A stretch of 35,366 nucleotides of DNA from Candidatus Eremiobacteraceae bacterium. Its GTDB lineage: Bacteria; Vulcanimicrobiota; Vulcanimicrobiia; Eremiobacterales; Eremiobacteraceae. Positions 5,908 to 24,370 of this stretch are shown here, in pieces. Position 1 is the first letter of the stretch. Each line of letters opens with the position of its first letter. The notes below the pieces were generated by a model that saw nothing but the letters and a program-made list of their open reading frames with translations, searched no databases and was not told where the DNA came from. Location of the stretch: contig DATFYX010000075.1 of assembly GCA_035314825.1 (NCBI GenBank), forward strand, positions 1-35,366, in the 5' to 3' direction. A program made the translations under genes and the position numbers.

Positions 5908-8661
<2,754 letters not shown>

Positions 8662-23482: not shown

Positions 23483-23508
23483 ATGGAGCGGTCGAATTTA
23501 TTCGACCG
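23483..23508 (+). repeat. Palindromic element, copy 2, between cdd and recO
   Basis: ATGGAG followed by CGGTCGAATTTATTCGACCG (9-bp arms, TT centre). A T-rich run (TTCTTTCTTT) follows, so it may also work as a terminator for cdd. The frame starting at its ATG (MERSNLFDR) runs without stop into recO. Confidence 0.8.
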
Positions 23509-23521
23509 TTCTTTCTTTATC

Positions 23522-24370
23522 ATGAAATCATACTCCGTCGAAGCCGTCGTGCTCCGTCTGCGCCCGCTGGGCGAGGCGGATCGCATACTCACGCTCTTCT
23601 CTCGCGAGCGCGGCAAGCTCCATGCCGTCGCCAAAGGGTCGCGCAAGACCGGCAGCCGTTTCGGCGCGCGGCTCGATTTCTTCAACCGCGTGTGGCTGTC
23701 GCTGCATAGCGGCCGCAGTCTCGACGTCGTGACCGGCGCCCGCTCTATCCCCGGTCCGCGCATGGAGCGGTCGAATTCATTCGACCGCCCACAACCCAGC
23801 GTCTGGGAGCGCCTCGTCGAACCCGACGCATTCGCGTTGGCCTCGTATGCCGCAGAGATCGTCGACGCGTTGTGCGAGCCGGATCTCGCCGTGCCGGACA
23901 TCTTCGATCTGCTCTGCGAATTGCGCGACGCGATCGGCGCGGGCGTGCAGCCCGCTGCGCTCGCACCTGCGGTGGATCTGCGCCTGCTTGGCGCTTTTGG
24001 GCTCGCGCCCGAGCTTGACGCGTGCGCGCGGTGCGGCACGCCGCTGGGCAACCGCCCGCTCGCGGGCGGACGCGCGCGTCTATCCCCGGCATCGGGCGGC
24101 CTGATATGCGCGCGCTGCAGCATCGAGGACTCTGCGATAGGCTCGGGCGCCTCGGGTCAGACCTATTCGGTGAGCAGCGGCGAACTGGCCCTTTTGCGCG
24201 TGCTGCGCGCCGCGCCGCTGCGCTCGCTCCAAGACATCCCCGACGTCGCGCAGGTGCGCCGGCTTACCAGGCCGTTCGTCGAGTATCAGCTTGGGCGCCG
24301 CTCGAGGGCGCTCTCGATCGACGACTCGCAGCGGCAGCGGCGTCGGTCTTCGAAGAGCGCATCGCGATGA
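23522..24370 (+). CDS. recO: DNA repair protein RecO, with palindromic insert
   Basis: 282 residues. RecO loads RecA with RecR and anneals single strands. The OB domain is MKSYSVEAVVLRLRPLGEADRILTLFSRERGKLHAVAKGSRK (1-42) and on to about 78; then a helical domain and a zinc finger with CARCG and CARCS (about 168-171, 200-203). Residues 81-89, MERSNSFDR, are encoded by the third palindromic element, placed in frame at the boundary after the OB domain where RecO tolerates loops. I start at ATG 23522, where RecO similarity begins; ATG 23483, inside another element copy, would add 13 residues. No Shine-Dalgarno site is visible for either. Overlaps ruvX (ATGA). Confidence 0.93.
   Translation: MKSYSVEAVVLRLRPLGEADRILTLFSRERGKLHAVAKGSRKTGSRFGARLDFFNRVWLSLHSGRSLDVVTGARSIPGPRMERSNSFDRPQPSVWERLVEPDAFALASYAAEIVDALCEPDLAVPDIFDLLCELRDAIGAGVQPAALAPAVDLRLLGAFGLAPELDACARCGTPLGNRPLAGGRARLSPASGGLICARCSIEDSAIGSGASGQTYSVSSGELALLRVLRAAPLRSLQDIPDVAQVRRLTRPFVEYQLGRRSRALSIDDSQRQRRRSSKSASR
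23762..23787 (+). repeat. Palindromic element, copy 3, inside recO
   Basis: ATGGAG followed by CGGTCGAATTCATTCGACCG, identical to copy 2 except one base in the centre. It lies in the recO frame and adds MERSNSFDR to the protein without breaking it. Confidence 0.85.

Follow-up and report, generated by a model that had tools for sequence, protein, structure and literature searches.

REPs of the GTAG superfamily are dispersed, high-copy palindromes of 20–40 bp, which carry an unpaired GTAG-type tag at one end, form a stem of 5–13 bp with a short loop and compensatory variants, and lie predominantly outside genes. The superfamily, its RAYTs, the occurrence of intragenic copies, their frequency in replication and repair genes, and a suggested siting in linkers have all been published (Nunvar 2010, PMC2817692; PMC3733652), and an account of 2013 (Di Nocera, PMC3733652) already covers REPs that lie within genes, among them genes for DNA repair. 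The tag degeneracy listed for the GTAG families comprises GYAG, GYRG, GTRG, and GTMG (PMC3733652), and GGAG is listed as a REP head in neither PMC3733652 nor PMC2817692. For REPs in Eremiobacterota, no report was found in the open-access literature. The element considered here lies within recO in a stretch of 35,366 nucleotides (the window) and is best read as a single copy of a new, mostly GGAG-tagged family of the GTAG-tagged superfamily, probably spread in the RAYT manner and with its copies kept mostly in linkers and termini, a reading to which we assign a probability of about 0.88. The genome holding the window (G000; 2.55 Mb in 89 contigs, 97% complete) was compared with its two congeners (G001 and G002) and with more distant relatives; copy-level analysis covered 96 copies from 682 kb of G000, with comparison stretches of 555 kb from G001 and 184 kb from G002.

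Structure of the Unit and Its Copies in the Window

The palindrome CGGTCGA-N6-TCGACCG has exactly three matches in the window, at 6987, 23489, and 23768, with ATGGAG directly 5′ of each, which confirms the 26-nt unit that an earlier, sequence-only reading had placed at 6981, 23483, and 23762. The three copies (6981–7006, 23483–23508, and 23762–23787) are identical apart from a loop base and a single stem pair (G-C rather than A-T in the 6981 copy), and lie ahead of pyrG, ahead of recO, and in frame within recO, respectively. The unit is built of a 4-base tag (GGAG) and a 20-base palindrome, with a 9-bp stem and a 2-base TY loop. In the pyrG leader, the copy (6983–7006, + strand) is the stem variant with G-C at pair 8 and ends 8 nt 5′ of the GTG start at 7015 of the CTP synthase gene pyrG (7015–8661, + strand), a start deduced from 92% identity to G002, whose own pyrG leader contains no copy. 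The second copy (23485–23508, + strand) occupies the spacer between a deaminase gene and recO, 13 nt 5′ of the conserved recO ATG, and the third (23764–23787, + strand), within recO, consists of the tag GGAG and CGGTCGAATTCATTCGACCG, with T at 23763 and A at 23762 also fitting the family, and encodes M-ERSNSFDR. A terminator-like hairpin (AGAACCAGGTCG...CGACCTGGTTCT) is also found 5′ of pyrG, at 6942–6973, and is matched at the equivalent position in G002, where the adjoining REP is absent. Four same-strand copies end 7–8 nt 5′ of a start codon (window 6983–7015; L069 7605; L073 5206; L084 5464); if the hairpin were looped out, the GGAG tag of these copies, four cases only, would fall at Shine-Dalgarno distance.

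When the flanks of 89 tagged copies from G000 are aligned, conservation runs from a T at position −1 (85/89) through the tag G[GT]AG and stops where the palindrome does; A occupies −2 in 59/89, and 3′ of the palindrome there is only a weak avoidance of G at the first base. The unit common to the copies can be written as T + G[GT]AG + 20 nt, with A preferred at −2; the tag and palindrome of the 26-nt unit first proposed stand, but its ATG is incidental. Among the 96 deduplicated copies, 89 are tagged G[GT]AG (GGAG in 69, GTAG in 20). The loop is TT or TC, and the 9-bp stem covaries at pairs 4, 8, and 9 (pair 8: AT 72, GC 18, CG 3; pair 4: TA 91, CG 4). Among the 4-mers that most often flank hairpins in an independent scan blind to sequence, GGAG and GTAG stand out in G000 but in neither G001 nor G002.

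Dispersal in One Species and Siting of the Copies

The genome-wide search for further copies that the sequence-only reading had proposed finds the perfect palindrome 157 times in the 2.55 Mb of G000, 101 times with GGAG, and not once in the backwards control, so that the matches at the window sites are not due to chance. In one congener, GGAG-tagged matches number 5, and in 59 other relatives 0–2. For the exact unit TGGAGCGGTCGARTTYAYTCGACCG, G000 has 85 occurrences and a further 116 genomes of the class have none, and a pattern scan across all species genomes gave mostly single chance matches. Over 157 copies of one REP family are dispersed in G000.

The element enters coding and non-coding DNA, as had been claimed: of the 96 copies, 58 fall essentially between genes and 21 in deep gene interiors, which make up 77% of the sequence and would be expected to hold ∼74, all of these counts resting on a home-made dicodon gene caller that overcalls coding DNA (94%). 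Spacers between convergent genes are over-represented (12/58 spacer copies vs. 23/277 spacers). Close pairs number 10 among the 96 copies, of which 8 are direct; inverted pairs are scarce, and head-to-head inverted dimers (REPIN) do not appear as the mobile unit in this set.

Intragenic copies are found in five frames out of six, the remaining one being interrupted by a stop in the palindrome; in one frame, copies tagged GTAG are blocked and those tagged GGAG are not. The counts give no support for enrichment of GGAG over GTAG inside genes (GGAG, 28 genic and 33 between genes; GTAG, 6 and 10). Copies deep in genes are biased toward linkers, with 12 of 17 in 16 Pfam-annotated proteins falling outside Pfam domains vs. 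4.5 expected (P ∼1.5e-5, simulated). The hosts include RecO, in the linker between RecO_N and RecO_C; a UvrD-type helicase with a PD-(D/E)XK nuclease domain, where the copy lies between helicase and nuclease; MutS2, ahead of the Smr domain; TilS and FabH; a 2-oxoacid dehydrogenase E2, with copies in both linkers; and an OGDH fusion protein, with a copy in a linker. In this OGDH E1/E2 fusion (L162 8643–12617, − strand), a second, degenerate REP peptide, DGRMNSNAPS, adjoins the first in the same linker.

The Insertion in recO and Orthologous Sites

The recO gene (23522–24370, + strand) starts at ATG 23522 and encodes 282 amino acids, with RecO_N at residues 1–75 and RecO_C at residues 101–262. 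With the frame intact, the copy at 23762 supplies residues 81–89, MERSNSFDR, between the two domains; the nine in-frame residues postulated at this domain border are thus upheld. It had further been held that both copies at recO give MERSN(L/S)FDR, and both do read so, but the other copy, 279 nt 5′ of the internal one, would yield the peptide only if translated from its own ATG (23483), and conservation puts the start at 23522. In an alignment with relatives, none of the other 13 genomes in the family has MERSNSFDR in its RecO. RecO is 15 residues shorter at the insertion place in 11 of these 13 relatives, and the element explains 8–9 of those residues. As judged by these alignments, the recO copy is an in-frame insertion into the inter-domain linker. 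The peptide that it adds is probably near-neutral.

The RecO linker is itself a hot spot of length variation: G001 (L101) has its own, unrelated 11-residue non-REP insert at the same place, and G002 has two extra residues. The G002 gene (L100) carries TCGACCGCTC at the linker place, possibly a remnant of an inverted copy. A cleaner case than recO is a DagK-like gene, which encodes LMERSNSFDR in G000 and shows a clean 10-residue gap in G001 (62% protein identity); this empty site is a 30-nt gap, which exceeds the 24–25-nt conserved unit and does not fix the exact insertion boundary. The orthologues of MutS2 and TilS also lack the element peptide, their linkers being too diverged for exact alignment.

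RAYT Genes and Sister REPs in Related Genera

No RAYT or Y1 transposase was found in G000 by searches with Pfam Y1_Tnp, RAYT proteins, or NCBIfam NF047646, and the Y1_Tnp and RAYT-protein searches of G001 and G002 gave no match. Similarly, G000 yielded no REPtron, that is, no RAYT gene with inverted cognate REPs. Across the family, Y1_Tnp genes are present in 10 of 14 genomes, one to three in each and none in the genus of the window, and at 12 of 15 such loci in sister genera tagged hairpins lie on both sides in inverted orientation. Two of the sister-genera proteins exceed the NCBIfam cut-off for REP-associated tyrosine transposase. In genus g4, the flanking hairpins GTAGCGGTCGAGCTTTAGCTCGACCG and GGAGCGGTCGAGATTCATCTCGACCG are sisters of the window unit with a different inner stem, the two g4 genomes contain 159 and 100 such units, and GTAG and GGAG sets surround two different transposases, which suggests that tag and enzyme diverged together in this genus. 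There (L113, L115, L123, L126; G012, G005), each genome has two RAYTs, one with GTAG-tagged and one with mainly GGAG-tagged sister REPs. RAYT genes of other genera (L122 1120–1400, L125 1071–1270) have one-sided tandem arrays of 6–8 direct REPs at a spacing of ∼34–35 nt.

Proposed Mechanism and Alternative Explanations

RAYT action on REP hairpins is known from the literature. By analogy, the unit as single-stranded DNA would fold into a hairpin that a RAYT (a Y1 HUH enzyme) would bind, the tag guiding cleavage, and copies would be moved in trans. Such dispersal would have left most copies in spacers, and genic copies would have been kept only where the frame stayed open and the 8–9 added residues for the most part fell within a linker or at a terminus, recO being an example. 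Because no RAYT is detectable in G000 or its two congeners, we infer from the relatives that a RAYT mobilized the unit in G000; the enzyme may have been recently lost, may be encoded in the few percent that the assembly lacks, or may have acted from elsewhere. The failure to detect a RAYT in the genus, a GGAG tag outside the listed degeneracy, and the predominance of single copies, with the few pairs mainly direct, count against this reading. Alternatively, some enzyme other than a RAYT might have driven the expansion of this REP family within a single species, and the GGAG tag, which unlike GTAG is stop-free, would then allow genic insertion in five of the six frames; we consider this rather unlikely.

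An in-frame repeat like the Rickettsia palindromic elements or the cyanobacterial small dispersed repeats (SDR), unrelated to REPs and spread by an unknown route, would have a similar outcome, namely a short palindrome in genes and spacers, kept in frame as peptide. The sequence-only reading had favored a Rickettsia affinity, which is abandoned here: the 24–25-nt unit has a GTAG/GGAG tag and the GC-rich, TY-loop hairpin of a GTAG-tagged REP, inverted sister units border RAYT genes, and the short Rickettsia elements RPE-4 and RPE-6 are themselves placed among the tagged REPs, in the CGTC superfamily (PMC3733652), all of which makes an origin apart from REPs improbable. The claim of a new family in this lineage holds for a new REP family but not for a new kind of element. 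A perfect palindrome with a preference for spacers, and an excess in those between convergent genes, might also serve a regulator that binds DNA or RNA (as an operator, a terminator, or an mRNA hairpin), having arisen or been kept by selection at each place; however, the one-sided tag is conserved beyond the palindrome, copies occur within core enzymes and use five of the six frames, and the unit is absent from congeners, as at the orthologous positions of pyrG, recO, and DagK, and we rate this explanation as very improbable. Some copies may have been secondarily used as terminators or mRNA stabilizers. Variation in the length of the RecO linker, as in G001 and G002, could suggest that residues 81–89 are an ordinary lineage-specific linker matching the repeat by chance, a notion refuted by the genome-wide count, since the 24-nt match is to a family of over 157 copies with a control of 0 and a second copy lies 279 nt upstream; its probability is negligible.

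These findings extend REP elements and RAYTs to uncultured Eremiobacterota and show clearly that core enzymes (RecO, UvrD-type helicase-nuclease, MutS2, TilS, E2, and OGDH subunits) can accept a transposon-like repeat as peptide in their linkers. They also pose the question of how a one-species family reached over 157 near-identical copies with no transposase detectable in the genus.

Comparison With Known Systems

Cyanobacterial SDR are 21–27-nt units in genes and spacers, for which we know of no RAYT-type tag; by description, rather than by sequence, they resemble the present family as short units found in both kinds of DNA. Rickettsia palindromic elements share the in-frame insertion in conserved genes with the peptide kept; by length and tag, they differ from the present family, RPE-1 being longer and the tag being a different one. 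Within the GTAG-tagged REPs, the family is less usual in its GGAG tag, scarce inverted pairs, mostly single copies, and missing transposase: most copies carry GGAG, which goes beyond the published degeneracy although both tags flank RAYTs in sister genera; they stand singly or in direct pairs, whereas head-to-head inverted dimers predominate in known families; and searches of the genome and its congeners gave no RAYT. The 24-nt unit with its 157 perfect palindromes has the size, the tag at one end (89/96), and the GC-rich hairpin with 9-bp stem, 2-nt TY loop, and covarying stem pairs of these REPs. Its hundreds of dispersed copies are mostly in spacers (21/96 deep in genes vs. 74 expected), with some in frame in genes including those for DNA repair, and RAYT genes with inverted flanking copies occur, here in sister genera.
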